From Pseudanabaena sp. PCC 6802 (GTDB lineage Bacteria; Cyanobacteriota; Cyanobacteriia; Pseudanabaenales; Pseudanabaenaceae), in NCBI RefSeq assembly GCF_000332175.1, contig NZ_KB235914.1:69966-133965 (forward strand): DNA of 64,000 bases, written 5' to 3'. Shown piece by piece: positions 53,734 to 61,731 of the stretch. Position numbers and translations under genes: made by a program. A model generated the notes under the pieces. It was not told the origin of the DNA and made no database searches. It was given only the letters and a program-made list of their open reading frames with translations. Numbering within the stretch: position 1 is the first letter of the stretch; the number at the start of each line of letters is the position of its first letter.

Positions 53734-56517
53734 ATGAAAATTCTATTGGTAGAAGATGATGAAGCTACAGTCAATTTATTGCAACTAGCCTTTTCCCGGC
53801 AACAATACACGATTGATGTTGCCCTAGATGGGAACACGGGTTGGCAGTTTGCCGAAAGTAAGGACTACGATCTGATCCTGCTAGATGTAATGCTGCCCAA
53901 GCTAGATGGAATTAGTTTTTGTCGTCGTCTGCGATCGCAGCAAAAATACGTGCCAGTGTTGATGATGACAGCCAGAGATGCTGTCAGCGATCGGGTGCTG
54001 GGTTTGGATGCTGGGGCTGACGATTACCTGGTCAAGCCCTTTGAGTTGAGCGAATTAGCTGCTAGAGTGCGATCGCTGCTCAGGCGGGGCAAGGATACAG
54101 CCGTATCCAAATTGACATGGGGCGATATTCATATCGATACGGTGCGCGGAGAAGCATATTACCGCGACAGCCCCCTTCAACTATCTCGCAAAGAGTATGC
54201 CATTTTAGAACTATTCCTGCGGCACCCCAAACAAATATTTGCCCCACCTAAAATTATCGACTTGCTCTGGTCTCTTGATAGTACCCCTGGCGACGAGACA
54301 GTCAAGGCACATATTAAGGGGCTGCGTAGAAAATTAAAAAAATTAGGAGCGCCTCCCGATGCAATTGAAACTGTTTACGCTCAGGGCTATCGCCTCAACC
54401 CAGCTTTGTTGGCCGAGACAACTACAACTCAGTCATCCTACGCTAAGCCGAAAGGGGAGAGAAAAACCGATGTCGACCTGCCGGAGTCAGCCGAACAGCG
54501 GATGATGGCCAAGGTGGCTCAGATCTGGCAAGCTAATAGGCTCAATAGCGTTGCCTATGTCACGCTGCTAGAGCAGTCCGCAAATTCACTAGCTTTAGGC
54601 AACTTTGCCAACGAACAGGTGCAGGAAGCAGCCCAGGTGGCACATAAATTAGCTGGTTCCCTAGGCATGTTTGGGTTTCAAGACGGCTCTGGGTTAGCCA
54701 AGCAGATAGAGCAACTATTACAAACGCCTGACTCGCTAGATCGCCAGCAAATCGAGCAAATTAGCAATTTTGTGTCCGAAATACGACATGTAATTGAAAC
54801 GGCTGCCGTCCCAAATGCACCTTCTCCTCCTCCCCAGGCTCAACCTTTAGAGGAAGAGCAAAGACCTTTATTATTGGTTGTAGATAGCGATCGCGAATTT
54901 GCCCAACGACTGGCAGCAGAGGCGGTGGCGCGCGGCTATAGAAGTGAAATCGTATCTACTCCCAATGCAGGGAGGGAGTGGATTGCCCGCGAACCCCCGG
55001 TTTGTGTAATTACGGAGCTATGCTTTCCTGGCGAGTCAGAACAGCCCGGGCAGGTCTGGCAATTTTTGAGGGAGTTACAGTCTGCTCCCTTTGACATTCC
55101 AACAGTCACGCTGACTGCTAACGATAGTTTTTCCGATCGCTTAGAAGCAGCTAGGTGTGGCAGCCGAATTTTCTTACAAAAAACTTCTGCTCTATCTGCG
55201 ATCGTAGAGTCGGTAACTCAGTTACTCAATCGCGACTCCAGTAGCACGGTTAGGGTTTTAGCGGTAGATGACGATCCGCAAATATTGGAGCTATTACACA
55301 GCCTGCTGGAGCCGCACGGCATTCAGGTAATCTCCCTCAACGATCCATCGCGATTTTGGCCTGTTTTTGAAGAAACAGTGCCAGATATGATAATTCTCGA
55401 TATCAAAATGTCAGACATCAATGGAATCGAACTCTGTCAAATCATCCGCAGCGACCCCACCTGGCATCTGATGCCGATAATTTTTCTCACTGCCCATACC
55501 GACGAACCGACCATCCAAAGTCTGTTTGCCGCTGGTGCCGATGACTGGATCGCTAAGCCCGCCACCACTTCGATGCTGGTGACTCGGATTTTCAATCGTC
55601 TAGAACGCATCCATAGATTGCGCTTGCAAGCAGAAGTCGATCCCCTTACAGGTGTATCGAATCGCCGCAAGTCTGGAGAGGAAGTCAAACGCTTGATCGG
55701 TCTGGCAAAGCGCTACGAACAGCCATTCTGTCTGGGCGTTCTGGACTTGGATAAGTTGAAGTTGATGAACGAGCGATATGGTAAGAACTGCGGCGATCGC
55801 GTACTGCATACCATAGGCAACCTGTTACCCCGCCAGTTTCGCAATGAAGATGTGGTCGCCTGTTGGGGCGGCGGCGAATTTATCGTTGGCATGTACGGCA
55901 TCACCAAAGCCGATAGCGTAGAGCGTTTAGCAGAAACCCTGGAGAACATCCGCCAAATTGAATTCTGCGATCCTAAAGGTCATAGGTTTAATGTCACGCT
56001 CAGTGCTGGTGTAGCCCAGTATCTAGTCGATGGGGCAGATCTCGATATGTTATATAAATCTGCCAGTGGAGCCTTATACCAAGCAAAATCTACCGGACGC
56101 GATCGCGTTCTCCCTGTTGGTTGGCAACCACCCCATCCAGAACATCAGTTTACTACTGATGTCGTATTAGTTTCAGATGAAACAATAATTCCCTATCAAC
56201 TCATCCGCGATCTAGGGAGAAGGGGATTTCACGCCCACTGGCGATCGGACTATCATGGAGCAGTCGATAACCTTTGCGACGCTAGTCTCAGACCCAGGGT
56301 AATTATTTTAGGAGCAGCTCCACCGGATCTAAGTCATCTGGAGTTGCTCAAGCGCCTCAAGCGTAAGAAGGTACTGCAACCCATTCGTGTCATCTTACTG
56401 AGCGATGATTCTAGCGAAGCTCAACAAGCAATGGGCTTGGGAGCTTTTGACTACGTAGTTCGACCCTGGACAGTCTCTGTTTTATTGCAAAGGCTACGTC
56501 GTGCTTTAAAACCTTGA
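53734..56517 (+). CDS. Multi-domain response regulator (REC-wHTH-Hpt-REC-REC-GGDEF-REC)
   Basis: 927 residues. Order: REC1 (1-115, phosphoacceptor D51), OmpR/PhoB winged helix (about 125-225, SRKEYAILELFLRHPKQIF), Hpt domain (about 255-350, H304 in AHKLAGSLGMFGF), REC2 (about 380-495), REC3 (about 505-620, RVLAVDDDPQ and ILDIKMSDINGIEL), GGDEF-type domain (from DPLTGVSNRRK at about 636) and a C-terminal REC4-like domain. REC2 has Glu in the Asp position (VCVITELCFPG) and REC4 has no Asp (VIILGAAPPD). The diguanylate cyclase motif reads GGGEF (712-716) instead of GGDEF, so cyclase activity is doubtful. It is followed by a histidine kinase and a single-domain regulator, forming one operon. Probably a phosphorelay hub with DNA-binding output. 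Confidence 0.93.
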   Translation: MKILLVEDDEATVNLLQLAFSRQQYTIDVALDGNTGWQFAESKDYDLILLDVMLPKLDGISFCRRLRSQQKYVPVLMMTARDAVSDRVLGLDAGADDYLVKPFELSELAARVRSLLRRGKDTAVSKLTWGDIHIDTVRGEAYYRDSPLQLSRKEYAILELFLRHPKQIFAPPKIIDLLWSLDSTPGDETVKAHIKGLRRKLKKLGAPPDAIETVYAQGYRLNPALLAETTTTQSSYAKPKGERKTDVDLPESAEQRMMAKVAQIWQANRLNSVAYVTLLEQSANSLALGNFANEQVQEAAQVAHKLAGSLGMFGFQDGSGLAKQIEQLLQTPDSLDRQQIEQISNFVSEIRHVIETAAVPNAPSPPPQAQPLEEEQRPLLLVVDSDREFAQRLAAEAVARGYRSEIVSTPNAGREWIAREPPVCVITELCFPGESEQPGQVWQFLRELQSAPFDIPTVTLTANDSFSDRLEAARCGSRIFLQKTSALSAIVESVTQLLNRDSSSTVRVLAVDDDPQILELLHSLLEPHGIQVISLNDPSRFWPVFEETVPDMIILDIKMSDINGIELCQIIRSDPTWHLMPIIFLTAHTDEPTIQSLFAAGADDWIAKPATTSMLVTRIFNRLERIHRLRLQAEVDPLTGVSNRRKSGEEVKRLIGLAKRYEQPFCLGVLDLDKLKLMNERYGKNCGDRVLHTIGNLLPRQFRNEDVVACWGGGEFIVGMYGITKADSVERLAETLENIRQIEFCDPKGHRFNVTLSAGVAQYLVDGADLDMLYKSASGALYQAKSTGRDRVLPVGWQPPHPEHQFTTDVVLVSDETIIPYQLIRDLGRRGFHAHWRSDYHGAVDNLCDASLRPRVIILGAAPPDLSHLELLKRLKRKKVLQPIRVILLSDDSSEAQQAMGLGAFDYVVRPWTVSVLLQRLRRALKP

Positions 56518-56543: not shown

Positions 56544-59231
56544 ATGATCGACAACCAGCCACAAACCCAAACCAGCCCTTCTCTGCTGCAAGCCATTTTC
56601 GAGCGTAACCCAGATGGCATCATCGTTACCGACGATAATTGTACTTGTGTAGAGGCAAATGCGGCTGCATGCAATTTACTAGGCATATCTAGAGCCGAAT
56701 TAATTGGTCGTAGCGTGACGTATTTTCTGGAATTGCGGTGCATTTTAGCCCAAAGTGGCTGCAATTTAGTGTCAACTGAAATTTCCAGAGCGGGATGTCG
56801 CCTGCATCGCACGGATGGGAGCCTGCGAGAGGTAGAGTATGCAGTAGCCATAAACTGTTTGCCCGGTCTCCACCTGATTACGCTAAGAGATAGCAGTTAT
56901 ACCCAAACTATGGGGGCTGAACTGCTCCATCAGAGTGAAGAACGTTTCCTCACCCTGGTTGAGACCTCAAGCGATTGGGTGTGGGAAATTAATGAGAACA
57001 TGACTTATACTTACTCAAGTCCTAAGGTAACGGATATCGCGGGCTACAAACCAAGCGAGATTATTGGTAAAACTCCTTTTGAGTTGTTACCAGAGCGCCA
57101 GGCGCAACGTATGGCTAGAGCATTCGATGTTATTACCAGTCGGCGCGAGCCTTTCTATAATCTGGAAAGTTTGCACGTTCATAAGAACGGTCATCTCATT
57201 GTTGTAGAGACTAATGCTGCTCCCATTTTCGATCTAGATGGAGAATTTCGAGGCTATCGTGGCATCAGCCGGGATATCACCGATCGCAAGCGTGTCGAGA
57301 AATCCCTCCGAGAAAGAGAACTGCAAATTGCCGCGATCGCCAATAATATCTCCTGTTCGATCTACCGTCTGGTCGTGCGCGCAGATAAAACAATGGAGAT
57401 GGTATTTATCAGTACGGGTTTGTATGAGATTACCGGTATATTACCAGAGACGGTAATGGCCGAGCCGCAGAAATTCTTCGATCTAATTCACCCTGAAGAT
57501 CGCGATCGATGCAAGTGCGTACTCCAGGATGCAGTAAACTCTTTACAACCGTTTACCCAGGAGTTTCGCTTGATCTCCACTACGGGCAAGGTGAAATGGG
57601 TGCGTAATAGCGCTCACCTATCATCGCTGGATGTAGATATTGCGATTGATGGCGTGCTTATAGACATTAGCGATCGCAAGCAAGCAGAAGAAGCTTTACG
57701 CCAAAGTGAAAATAACTTAGCTGAGGCGCAAAGGCTAGCTCACCTGGGCAGTTGGCAGTTCGATTTAGCTACGCAGACTCTAGTGTGGTCTGATGAAGCA
57801 TTTCGCATCTTTGGCTTAGAAGTGGGGCAACCAATTCCAACCTATCGAGAATTGCTGAAGAATTACGGCTTGCGAGATGCGAAGAAGATCGCCGCATCCC
57901 TGAGGCAGGCGATCGCCCATAATAAGCCATTCGAGATCGAAGCTGAAATCACCAGATTGGATGGGAGCTTGCGCTATCTATTAGTGAGGGGCAATCCTCT
58001 ATTTAACGCTCAGGGAGAAGTTTCGCAGCTATTTGGAATGATGCTGGATATTACCGAGCGCAAGCAGGCAGAAGTGGCAATGGCCGACCTCGCAGCGATC
58101 GTGAAATTCTCGGATGAAGCCATTATTGGCATGACACTCAGCGGCACGATCACGAGCTGGAATTTGGGCGCTCATCTGATCTACGGTTATACTGAGGAAG
58201 AAGCTGTTGGTCAAAACATCATCAACTTACTGGTGCCTCGCGGTGAGATAATCGGTATCTCAGGACCAGATTCTAGAGCTGCTCAAGATATCATTAGCTA
58301 CTACACCACGCCACACATGCGCAAAGATGGCAAGATTATTGAGGTACTGATGACGATATCACCAGTCAAAGATGCATTTGGCAATATTACTGGTAGTTCC
58401 GTGATCTCTAGAGATATCAGCGATCGCCGAGCTGTAGAAAGGCTGAAAGATGAATTTATCTCGATTGTCAGCCACGAACTCAGAACTCCATTAACTGCTA
58501 TGCATGGAGCGTTAGGGCTTTTGCTTACGGGCAATCTTGGCAAGTTAGAACCAAAGGGGCAGCGCATGTTAGAAATTGCTGTTGATAATACCAGCCGTCT
58601 GGTGCGACTCACCAACGACATTCTCACACTGGAAAGCCTGGAGTCAGGCAGAGTGCAGCTATCTCAGAAAATTTGTAATATTACCGATCTACTCGAACAA
58701 GCGGTACGTAGTATGCAGCCAATTGCTGATAAAGCAGGAGTTACGCTGTCTATATCTCCTTTATCAGCCAAGATAGTTGTGGATGGAGATCGCATCATTC
58801 AGGTTCTCACTAATTTACTCAGTAATGCCATCAAGTTCTCTCCCCCCAATGAGTCGGTTGAATTGAAGGCTACTATAGAGAGCGATCGCCACCTCCTCCA
58901 GCCCAGTGGGTGGGAGTTTCAATCGGATGACTCGCGGCAACAAGTTCTACTAATTACCGTACGGGATTATGGCAGAGGAATTCCATCTGATAAGTTAAAT
59001 GTCATTTTTGAGCGATTTCAACAGGTTGATGCCTCCGACAGTCGGCAAAAAGGAGGAACGGGACTGGGTTTAGCGATTTGTCGCAGTATCGTCCAACAGC
59101 ACGGCGGTCGGATCTGGGTAGAAAGCATTGTCGATCGAGGCAGCACTTTTTTCATCAGTCTGCCAATCTCAGTGCCACGAGCGATGCGGGGGCGATCGCT
59201 CCCCAGCCGAGATATGCGTGTAATTCTGTAG
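56544..59231 (+). CDS. Multi-PAS sensor histidine kinase
   Basis: 895 residues from the ATG at 56544; a TTG at 56514 overlaps the upstream stop and would add ten residues. Five PAS domains are visible, starting near residues 12, 130, 259, 389 and 515 (for example LVETSSDWVWEINENMTYTY and LAHLGSWQFDLATQTLVWSD). HisKA follows with H644 in SIVSHELRTPLTAMHG. The HATPase has NLLSNAIKFS, DYGRGIPSDKL and GGTGLGLAICRSIVQQHGG. No membrane segment is visible, so it is a cytoplasmic sensor. No cysteine or chromophore motif identifies the stimulus. It is encoded between two response regulators, its likely partners. Confidence 0.95.
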   Translation: MIDNQPQTQTSPSLLQAIFERNPDGIIVTDDNCTCVEANAAACNLLGISRAELIGRSVTYFLELRCILAQSGCNLVSTEISRAGCRLHRTDGSLREVEYAVAINCLPGLHLITLRDSSYTQTMGAELLHQSEERFLTLVETSSDWVWEINENMTYTYSSPKVTDIAGYKPSEIIGKTPFELLPERQAQRMARAFDVITSRREPFYNLESLHVHKNGHLIVVETNAAPIFDLDGEFRGYRGISRDITDRKRVEKSLRERELQIAAIANNISCSIYRLVVRADKTMEMVFISTGLYEITGILPETVMAEPQKFFDLIHPEDRDRCKCVLQDAVNSLQPFTQEFRLISTTGKVKWVRNSAHLSSLDVDIAIDGVLIDISDRKQAEEALRQSENNLAEAQRLAHLGSWQFDLATQTLVWSDEAFRIFGLEVGQPIPTYRELLKNYGLRDAKKIAASLRQAIAHNKPFEIEAEITRLDGSLRYLLVRGNPLFNAQGEVSQLFGMMLDITERKQAEVAMADLAAIVKFSDEAIIGMTLSGTITSWNLGAHLIYGYTEEEAVGQNIINLLVPRGEIIGISGPDSRAAQDIISYYTTPHMRKDGKIIEVLMTISPVKDAFGNITGSSVISRDISDRRAVERLKDEFISIVSHELRTPLTAMHGALGLLLTGNLGKLEPKGQRMLEIAVDNTSRLVRLTNDILTLESLESGRVQLSQKICNITDLLEQAVRSMQPIADKAGVTLSISPLSAKIVVDGDRIIQVLTNLLSNAIKFSPPNESVELKATIESDRHLLQPSGWEFQSDDSRQQVLLITVRDYGRGIPSDKLNVIFERFQQVDASDSRQKGGTGLGLAICRSIVQQHGGRIWVESIVDRGSTFFISLPISVPRAMRGRSLPSRDMRVIL

Positions 59232-59242
59232 GAACGATAGCG

Positions 59243-59617
59243 ATGGATACGAAGTGCGTGCTAATTGTTGATGATGAACCTGACATCCGCGAAGTCGCGC
59301 AGGTCAGCCTGGAGATGATGGGAGGATGGCAAGTGTTGACCTCCGATTCTGGTCGAGATGGTCTTGCCAAGGCTAAATCCGCACAACCCAATGCTATCTT
59401 GTTAGATGTGATGCTACCAGATATGGATGGGCCGACAACATTTCAAAATTTGCAAGCCGATCCGTTGACTGCTCATATTCCTGTAATTTTCCTGACAGCC
59501 AAAATCCAGCCAGTCGATCGCGCCCGCTTTACTAATTTGGGAGTTACGGCAGTTATTGCTAAACCTTTCGATCCGTTAACCTTAGCTAAGCAGGTAGCTG
59601 AGGTATTGGGTTGGTAA
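59243..59617 (+). CDS. Single-domain (CheY-like) response regulator
   Basis: 124 residues from the ATG at 59243, 11 bp after the kinase stop; a longer frame from 59078 lies within the kinase gene and is not used. VDDEPD gives the acidic pocket, ILLDVMLPDMDG the phosphoacceptor Asp, and VIAKPFDPLTL the conserved Lys. There is no output domain, so it may pass phosphate to the Hpt domain of the large upstream regulator or act through protein contact. Third gene of the operon. Confidence 0.93.
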   Translation: MDTKCVLIVDDEPDIREVAQVSLEMMGGWQVLTSDSGRDGLAKAKSAQPNAILLDVMLPDMDGPTTFQNLQADPLTAHIPVIFLTAKIQPVDRARFTNLGVTAVIAKPFDPLTLAKQVAEVLGW

Positions 59618-59877: not shown

Positions 59878-61731
59878 ATGGAATTTCAAGCCTTTGTTCA
59901 CGGTGTTTTTGCTAGCACGCAATCTGCCGCCAGTGATGATGCTAGCCGTACGCAAGATCTAAACTTTGTCAACGCAGCATTCAAGTCAGCCCTGACTGCA
60001 AAGGTGGCCTTTTACACCGCGATCGCGGTAGCTGCCTCGATCGGTAGTTCCCTCACAAGTTTACCCATATTTGCGGCTGAGTACAGTGCCAGTACGTCCG
60101 ATCTACAGAGCTTACTGGCGAGTAGGGGCTTCTATGGTGGCGAAGTTGACGGCATTGCAGGAGAAAAGACCAAACAAGCTATTATCAAGGCTCAGCAATT
60201 CTACGGTTTAAATACTGATGGTATTGTGGGTGAAGTAACTTTAGTCGCTTTGCAAGAAGATAAAGCGGAATCATCAACGGATGCAGCGATCGCCACAAAT
60301 ATCTCGGTATCCGATTTGCAGAATTTATTGGCCAAGCGTGGTTTTTATAAAGGTGATATTGATGGCGTCTTTGGCACCAGTACCAAAGACGCAGTGATTC
60401 AAGCTCAAAAATTTTATGGCCTGACTCCCGATGGGATTGTGGGTAGCAAGACTGTTGCAGCCTTAGAGGCAGATACGGATGCGGCTCAAACTGCCTCCAG
60501 CCTAACGGGCGATGATGTTGTCAGGCTGCAAAAACTTTTGACCTCAAGAGGATTTTACAGTGGGCCAATTAGTGGCTTTATCGGCAACCTGACTAAAGAA
60601 GCAATTCTCAAGGCACAAAAGTTTTATGGGTTGACTGAGGATGGCGTACCTGGTAAAGCAACATTTGCAGCTCTAGAAGCCGATAGCGAGTACAACAAAT
60701 CAGCGAAGACAGAAGATATCAAGCACGTACAGAGTTTGCTAGCAGAGCGGGGATTTTACAAAGGAGAGATCGATGGTGTCCTGGGTGAAGGCACCAAAGA
60801 AGCCATCCGTACGGCTCAAAGGTTCTATGGTTTAACAGTTGATGGTGTAGCAGGAGCTGGGACTATTTCCGCTTTGAGTGGGAACAAGGCCAGACGAGTA
60901 TCAACCCACTCCACACCGCCTGCTAAATCGGTTACAGCATCGAGCGATCGCACCGCAACCAGGACGACTACTGCAACGCGGACTCCATCTGCGCCAGAAA
61001 AGATCGCTAGCAAGCAACCTCCTGCCAAAACTGCGTCAAAGCCCAACTCTCCCGCTAAAATCGCAGCTAAACCAGCCCCTGCAAAGCCAGAGGTTCCAAA
61101 AGCTGCTACTAAGCCTGCACCGACTCCCTCTAAAGTAGAGAAGCCAGCCGCAAGCCAGGTGACAGTGAAGCCCAATCCTACTAAACCAGTTGCTACTAAA
61201 ACTACACCTGCGCAAGAGACGACCAAAGTCACAGCAACTAAACCCGCACCCACAGCAGAGAAACCAGTGGCTTCTAAGCCCGCAGTTACCAAATCGGCTC
61301 CTAGTAAGGAAGCAGCCAAACCCGATCTAGCCACCAAGCCCACTCCCGCAGATATGCCTAAGGTTGAGGATCCTGCGCCCGCACAGCCAACAGCCGTCAA
61401 ACCAACACCTGCTGCTAGTCCTGAAGTGGCGAACCCTCTTACTGCCCCACCACAGCCAACCCCAGAAACAACTGCATCGATTGAGCCATCCAATCCTACC
61501 AGCACTAAGCCTGGAACAAACAATAAAAACGTGCAGGTATCGGATTTGCAGAAACTGCTCGCTACGCGTGGTTTTTTCACTGGTTCCACCACGGGAGTAA
61601 TGGATAATGAAACCAAGAATGCGATTATGAGAGCTCAAAGTTTCTATGGTCTGACTCCTGCGGATGGCGATCCATCCTCGGCATTAGTCGAGAGTCTAAA
61701 TCGCGATCCTTTTGTAGCTAAAGATAATTAA
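59878..61731 (+). CDS. Peptidoglycan-binding protein with five PG_binding_1 domains
   Basis: 617 residues. After a 50-residue N-terminus there is one hydrophobic segment, VAFYTAIAVAASIGSSLTSL, ending near FAAEYSA; the long polar lead before it makes an uncleaved anchor or a Sec signal both possible. Four consecutive PG_binding_1 domains follow (about 75-345), each with LQ.LLA.RGFY.G..DG..G..TK.AI..AQ.FYGL. Then comes a Lys/Pro/Ala/Thr-rich linker of about 200 residues and a fifth domain near the C-terminus (LQKLLATRGFFTGSTTGVMD). The linker may span the cell wall. It probably binds peptidoglycan without enzymatic activity, as no catalytic domain is visible. Confidence 0.93.
   Translation: MEFQAFVHGVFASTQSAASDDASRTQDLNFVNAAFKSALTAKVAFYTAIAVAASIGSSLTSLPIFAAEYSASTSDLQSLLASRGFYGGEVDGIAGEKTKQAIIKAQQFYGLNTDGIVGEVTLVALQEDKAESSTDAAIATNISVSDLQNLLAKRGFYKGDIDGVFGTSTKDAVIQAQKFYGLTPDGIVGSKTVAALEADTDAAQTASSLTGDDVVRLQKLLTSRGFYSGPISGFIGNLTKEAILKAQKFYGLTEDGVPGKATFAALEADSEYNKSAKTEDIKHVQSLLAERGFYKGEIDGVLGEGTKEAIRTAQRFYGLTVDGVAGAGTISALSGNKARRVSTHSTPPAKSVTASSDRTATRTTTATRTPSAPEKIASKQPPAKTASKPNSPAKIAAKPAPAKPEVPKAATKPAPTPSKVEKPAASQVTVKPNPTKPVATKTTPAQETTKVTATKPAPTAEKPVASKPAVTKSAPSKEAAKPDLATKPTPADMPKVEDPAPAQPTAVKPTPAASPEVANPLTAPPQPTPETTASIEPSNPTSTKPGTNNKNVQVSDLQKLLATRGFFTGSTTGVMDNETKNAIMRAQSFYGLTPADGDPSSALVESLNRDPFVAKDN

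Follow-up and report, generated by a model that had tools for sequence, protein, structure and literature searches.

What does a DNA-binding response regulator do with four receiver domains and a diguanylate cyclase domain whose catalytic motif is broken? The question is raised by a gene in the window, by which we mean the whole stretch of 64,000 nucleotides of Pseudanabaena sp. PCC 6802 analyzed here. Its open reading frame runs without interruption on the forward strand from the ATG at 53734 to the stop codon at 56517 and yields a product of 927 amino acids. The Pfam matches in it are Response_reg (8.8e-74), in four separate stretches, Trans_reg_C (1.4e-19), Hpt (5.3e-10), and GGDEF (4.1e-31). 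The frame and the Pfam matches bear out what a sequence-only reading had described, namely, four receivers together with DNA-binding, Hpt, and GGDEF-like domains in one protein.

53734..56517, + strand: response regulator of 927 aa with the order REC1-wHTH-Hpt-REC2-REC3-GGDEF-REC4 (ORF and Pfam)
53734..54087, + strand: REC1, aa 1-118, active site complete, phosphoacceptor Asp51 at 53884-53886 (Pfam, alignment)
54106..54399, + strand: OmpR/PhoB winged-helix DNA-binding domain, aa 125-222 (Trans_reg_C, 1.4e-19)
54517..54828, + strand: Hpt domain, aa 262-365, His304 at 54643-54645 (Pfam, 5.3e-10)
54865..55224, + strand: REC2, aa 378-497, pseudo-receiver in which Glu428 (55015-55017) replaces Asp (alignment, AlphaFold strands)
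55252..55599, + strand: REC3, aa 507-622, active site complete, phosphoacceptor Asp556 at 55399-55401 (Pfam, alignment)
55630..56112, + strand: GGDEF domain, aa 633-793, predicted to be catalytically dead (Pfam, 4.1e-31; motif)
55840..55851, + strand: I-site RxxD, R703-N-E-D706 (alignment)
55867..55881, + strand: degenerate A-site GGGEF, aa 712-716, with Gly714 in place of the metal-binding Asp/Glu (sequence, alignment)
56155..56505, + strand: REC4, aa 808-924, C-terminal pseudo-receiver with Gly860 (56311-56313) at the Asp position (Pfam, alignment)

The earlier reading was also right about the phosphoacceptor positions, which hold Asp in REC1 and REC3 (D51 and D556), Glu in REC2 (E428), and neither in REC4 (G860). 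In the sequence and in a 74-row alignment, the catalytic sets of REC1 (E7-D8/D51/T79/K101) and REC3 (D512-D513/D556/T586/K608) are complete; the equivalent sites of REC2 are D384-S385/E428/T461/K483, and with S385 its second acidic metal ligand is absent as well. A receiver with a full active site followed by a Trans_reg_C winged helix identifies an OmpR/PhoB-type regulator, and the PDB matches over about residues 1 to 221 are OmpR-family regulators. The Hpt assignment is based on His304, the Pfam match, and helices within residues 253 to 356 of an AlphaFold model.

Could the Asp in REC2 and REC4 merely be shifted, a case that the sequence-only reading had set out to be checked by alignment and structure prediction? 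In the AlphaFold model, strand beta3 of REC2 (424 to 428) ends with E428, and G860 comes directly after beta3 of REC4 (856 to 859); because the predicted strands place both residues like D51 and D556 in REC1 and REC3, the Asp is missing and not shifted, and the alignment likewise rules out a shift. The model (7 sequences; mean pLDDT, 67; pTM, 0.28; GGDEF domain mostly below a pLDDT of 50) is too weak to show how the domains pack or where c-di-GMP would sit. REC2, with E428, S385, and alternating strands and helices, and REC4, with a Pfam stretch and five alternating strands and helices, are thus pseudo-receivers. None of the 19 REC4 domains aligned has Asp at this position, which is occupied by A (6), E (5), G (4), or S (4).

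The window protein is a member of a widespread cyanobacterial family with the architecture REC-wHTH-Hpt-REC-REC-GGDEF and about 800 residues. A search of 58 genomes with the whole protein gave matches in 25 at E<=1e-100, most of them ending near residue 793 or earlier and hence without REC4. Plasmid records of Leptolyngbya, Nostoc, Chroococcidiopsis, and others hold relatives that match to residue 817 at most and are mostly annotated as response regulators. With the C-terminal 297 residues as the query and up to six candidates scored per genome, 81 of 388 genomes of the class matched at E<=1e-35, and REC4 was present (query residue >=293 reached) in at least 18 rows, the window included. Judged by titles and the beginnings of abstracts, no study of this architecture was recognized in the open-access literature searched.

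The alignment comprised 19 REC4-bearing proteins (18 rows from the class search and 1 from the family search) and 55 REC4-less proteins, which are a sample. Left out were L008, which has no full open reading frame reaching the GGDEF domain, the GGDEF-less family members of ~630 residues, the duplicates L155 (identical to L025) and L156 (identical to L007), and some REC4-less or fragmentary rows; the fragments L142, L144, and L149 were counted only where the column was present. A pattern scan of genome contigs yielded mostly ordinary OmpR regulators, because the peptide patterns fell in the REC1-wHTH part, and 6 of its 80 loci served solely for the structure alignment.

In a tree built from 497 columns, with the catalytic and I-site motif columns removed, a single branch separates the 19 REC4-bearing proteins from all others (support 91/82) and recurs in 92% of 200 bootstrap trees. 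The topology suggests a single gain of REC4 in this lineage, and the domain appears to be non-phosphorylatable in every sampled member. The window protein clusters with L025 and a seven-protein branch at 98/85, and five of those seven proteins keep GGEEF. If catalysis was never regained, it was lost separately in the window/L025 lineage(s), L146/L181, and the other branch of ten proteins; under simple parsimony with regain allowed, one change in the catalytic motif suffices.

The two sites of the GGDEF domain have fared differently in this clade. In the window protein the A-site at residues 712 to 716 reads GGGEF and lacks one acidic metal-binding residue, as had been noted earlier, and R703-N-E-D706 is followed by five residues and then by G712, the spacing between RxxD and the GGDEF motif known from PleD. 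A broken A-site combined with an RxxD so placed is the signature of a degenerate GGDEF c-di-GMP receptor of the PopA/SgmT type. Among the REC4-bearing proteins, an intact GG[D/E]EF motif is present in 5/19 (broken in 14), the metal-binding Asp671 in 8/19, and RxxD in 19/19; the corresponding counts without REC4 are 38/55, 45/55, and 33/55. Within the broken-motif proteins, RxxD is kept in 14/14 with REC4 versus 5/17 without (Fisher p = 9e-5) and in 13/13 versus 5/17 when the window protein is excluded (p = 9e-5), values that overstate independence because the REC4 clade is one lineage. After thinning of near-duplicates at 90, 75, 60, and 55% identity, p was 9e-5, 7e-4, 0.003, and 0.009, respectively, with RxxD in 9/9 versus 3/9 at the last step. 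On the tree, RxxD changed 0 times in the REC4 clade and 11 times elsewhere, with 4.5 changes expected in the clade from its branch length at the rate seen elsewhere (P(0) = 0.011); these tests are not mutually independent, and independent-pair tests had few pairs. Retention of the GGDEF domain for binding explains the pattern better than decay does, and RxxD retention can also have folding reasons.

Is the domain of the window protein an enzyme? The GG[D/E]EF motif is broken and Asp671 is still present; of the A-site residues that were checked, E/D714 alone is missing, and D671, K676, N679, D688, K785, and R789 are kept. Because GGGEF lacks a metal ligand, no synthesis of c-di-GMP is expected, and the domain is likely catalytically inactive. 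Gly/Val substitutions such as those in the GGGVF motif of SgmT are stated to inactivate WspR in the available part of PMC3509222, which cites Malone 2007. A Gly at the third position also occurs in the REC4-less proteins L174, L180, L189, and L195.

It is unlikely, though slightly less so than the other alternatives, that the domain has remained a cyclase that is active, always or under some conditions, by itself or together with a partner subunit. The protein would then unite a transcription factor with a diguanylate cyclase, as many of its REC4-less relatives do. Residual or heterodimeric activity is possible because only one catalytic residue was lost, and the architecture does not require inactivity because five REC4-bearing proteins keep GGEEF. 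The preponderance of the canonical motif in the REC4-less proteins fits this alternative, as do reports, in the accessible portions of the sources, that a noncanonical motif can be active (VCA0965, with the first-position change AGDEF; PMC3974145) and that CbrR, with a very divergent motif, has a low c-di-GMP output (PMC8779298). However, it is precisely a metal ligand that the third-place Gly removes, and sister proteins have gone further, with Asp671 also missing in 11 of the 14 REC4-bearing proteins with broken motifs. A domain that probably senses c-di-GMP rather than making it, like PopA or SgmT, is the reading that we prefer. The source genome encodes 24 GGDEF and 14 EAL domains, and 17 of the 23 other GGDEF domains are canonical; therefore, c-di-GMP should be present. 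The same genome also holds a REC4-less paralogue with a canonical GGEEF (L026, L159) at G000:C1:587338-589743, followed by a receiver-like open reading frame of 137 residues.

A second alternative, that the GGDEF domain, REC2, and REC4 are passively decaying remnants without function and that the working protein consists of REC1-wHTH and an Hpt-REC3 relay, seems to us improbable. It would account for the ~630-residue family members found in several genomes, in which the match ends before the GGDEF domain, and for the family-wide decay of REC2. Yet the GGDEF domain is as conserved with REC4 as without (mean majority-residue fraction, 0.64 versus 0.61), and by this measure the fold itself is not decaying. 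RxxD is invariant in the REC4-bearing proteins, and so are A733 and E737 downstream of the motif (19/19 each), positions at which the REC4-less proteins have Ala in 5/55 and Glu in 16/55. REC4 itself, with its invariant R830-G831, has persisted in a single clade across long branches (subtree length, 8.2). A switch is seen in the column of Arg731 of the window protein, which lies in the helix following the motif: it holds Arg in 53/55 REC4-less and Trp in 8/19 REC4-bearing proteins.

Which of the receivers are likely to work? All five REC residues are present in REC1 in 13/16 proteins with REC4 and 51/53 without, and in REC3 in 14/18 and 51/55; the Hpt His is kept in 13/15 and 54/55. Conservation thus points to REC3, Hpt, and REC1 as the phosphorelay core. 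The full set is found in REC2 in only 6/18 and 17/53 proteins and in REC4 in 0/19. REC2 mostly keeps its Asp (14/18 with REC4, 48/53 without), and Glu occupies this position in 2 of 72 aligned REC2 domains, those of the window protein and of L168, whose REC2 has also decayed. REC2 appears to be a receiver decaying family-wide, with Glu428 as a nearly private step, and after this conservation check Glu428 was dropped as a candidate for a conserved phosphomimetic.

The term phosphomimetic-type, which the sequence-only reading had applied to REC2, is not supported by this comparison. We also consider improbable the wider scheme to which it belongs, in which Glu428 locks REC2 on, the transcription factor is gated by its two active and two altered receivers alone, and the GGDEF domain is only a scaffold: Glu428 occupies the very position of the phosphoacceptor, T461 and K483 are retained, and Glu can partly mimic phosphate in some receivers (PMC12632262, available part), but this Glu is rare in REC2, Ser385 removes a metal ligand, the available part of PMC4395418 describes Asp-to-Glu changes as often not activating and Glu as the commonest residue in Asp-less receivers (26%; Gly, 11%), and a pure scaffold leaves the unbroken RxxD retention unexplained. 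What stands of the earlier interpretation is that the regulator binds DNA, that its GGDEF domain is probably inactive, and that two of its receivers are non-phosphorylatable; between the two roles that it had offered for the GGDEF domain, sensor is better than scaffold because RxxD is selectively kept. The earlier interpretation did not bring in the I-site, the one-time gain of REC4, or the REC3-Hpt-REC1 relay together with the kinase and lone receiver encoded alongside.

Some REC4-bearing relatives have lost parts of the relay. The REC1 Asp is missing in L152 and L153 and the Hpt His in L150 and L157; REC1, Hpt, or REC2 is broken or missing in L152, L153, L154, and L157, with no Hpt His column in L153 and L154. 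This suggests further stepwise loss in these four proteins, with RxxD still kept. Next to L150 lies a gene for a separate REC-Hpt protein (L150:4568-5455), which gives the impression that a different gene has taken over phosphotransfer.

Directly downstream of the regulator lie two genes that may take part in the relay.

56544..59231, + strand: histidine kinase with PAS repeats, HisKA, and HATPase_c, without a receiver (ORF, Pfam)
59243..59617, + strand: single-domain receiver of 124 aa, likely the third gene of the operon (ORF, Pfam)

The kinase frame opens at a TTG at 56514, and its likely start is the ATG at 56544, 26 nt past the regulator stop. A kinase and/or a lone receiver adjoins 8 of the 16 REC4-bearing relatives fetched with flanks: the kinase is downstream on the same strand in L141, L142, L146, L155, and L156, divergent in L143 and L145, and upstream in L151, and a lone receiver accompanies it in L141 (in the order of the window), L142, and L146. 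No kinase was recognized at the other 8 of these 16 loci (L144, with its upstream flank missing, L147, L148, L150, L152, L153, L154, and L157).

We hypothesize, with about even confidence, that the window protein is a transcription factor of the OmpR type that responds to two inputs, a phosphorelay and c-di-GMP sensed through a retired cyclase. The adjacent PAS histidine kinase would phosphorylate the stand-alone receiver or REC3, from which the phosphoryl group would pass to the Hpt residue His304 and on to Asp51 of REC1, and REC1 would control the winged helix. The GGDEF domain would make no c-di-GMP and instead bind it at the RxxD I-site, and binding may gate the relay or DNA binding. REC2 and REC4 presumably serve as protein-protein surfaces and not as switches. 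More tentatively, we suggest how this arrangement arose: a built-in diguanylate cyclase may have become a c-di-GMP receptor in a lineage that gained REC4 once and lost catalysis repeatedly and the I-site never, such that phosphorelay and c-di-GMP are integrated in DNA binding and REC4 is a partner surface for the messenger-bound GGDEF domain.

PopA of Caulobacter crescentus has the layout REC-REC-GGDEF and is not known to have the DNA-binding domain, the Hpt domain, or the C-terminal pseudo-receiver of the window protein. Both proteins have receivers before a GGDEF domain with a broken A-site and an intact I-site, and a receptor role of the window protein is proposed by this analogy. PopA is described as a degenerate GGDEF receptor of c-di-GMP in PMC3509222 (available part). 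The same part of that source describes SgmT of Myxococcus xanthus, which binds c-di-GMP at its I-site (RHPD) and has the A-site GGGVF; both are two-component proteins with a GGG-F type A-site and an intact I-site, and binding by the window protein is predicted. SgmT differs in being a kinase and in having no equivalents of K442/R446, where the window protein keeps K785 and R789, and the Arg of its secondary site (R794, 31 residues after the RxxD Arg) is absent from the window protein, which has Glu734 at +31 by ungapped count. CdgK-CdgS of Anabaena PCC 7120 is likewise a cyanobacterial kinase with a GGDEF response regulator in a REC/Hpt phosphorelay, but CdgS is an active cyclase for which the available part of PMC9927289 mentions no DNA-binding domain, and the Hpt belongs to the kinase. 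Over residues 508 to 793, REC3-GGDEF of the window protein aligns with receiver-cyclases of the DgcR type (PleD/DgcR; PDB 1w25 and 6zxm), which have the canonical motif in place of GGGEF and lack the wHTH, Hpt, and REC4. The REC1-wHTH half is that of an ordinary OmpR/PhoB-type regulator such as cyanobacterial RpaA and RpaB, which stop after the winged helix. The two altered receivers, REC2 with Glu and REC4 with Gly and without its catalytic residues, are typical Asp-less receivers according to the accessible parts of PMC12632262 and PMC4395418, although here they sit inside a multi-receiver regulator. By analogy, the nearest counterparts are PopA and SgmT as receptors and CdgK-CdgS as a kinase-GGDEF relay in cyanobacteria; none that we found described has the combination seen here.

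If our hypothesis is correct, the window protein connects c-di-GMP directly with transcription within a cyanobacterial two-component regulator, and its relatives form a natural series from canonical to broken cyclases in which an enzyme can be watched becoming a receptor. For multi-receiver proteins, conservation across relatives tells a working relay (REC3-Hpt-REC1) from receivers that are surfaces only. Farther downstream in the window, at 59878-61731, lies a gene encoding five peptidoglycan-binding repeats and a Pro/Ala/Lys-rich stretch.
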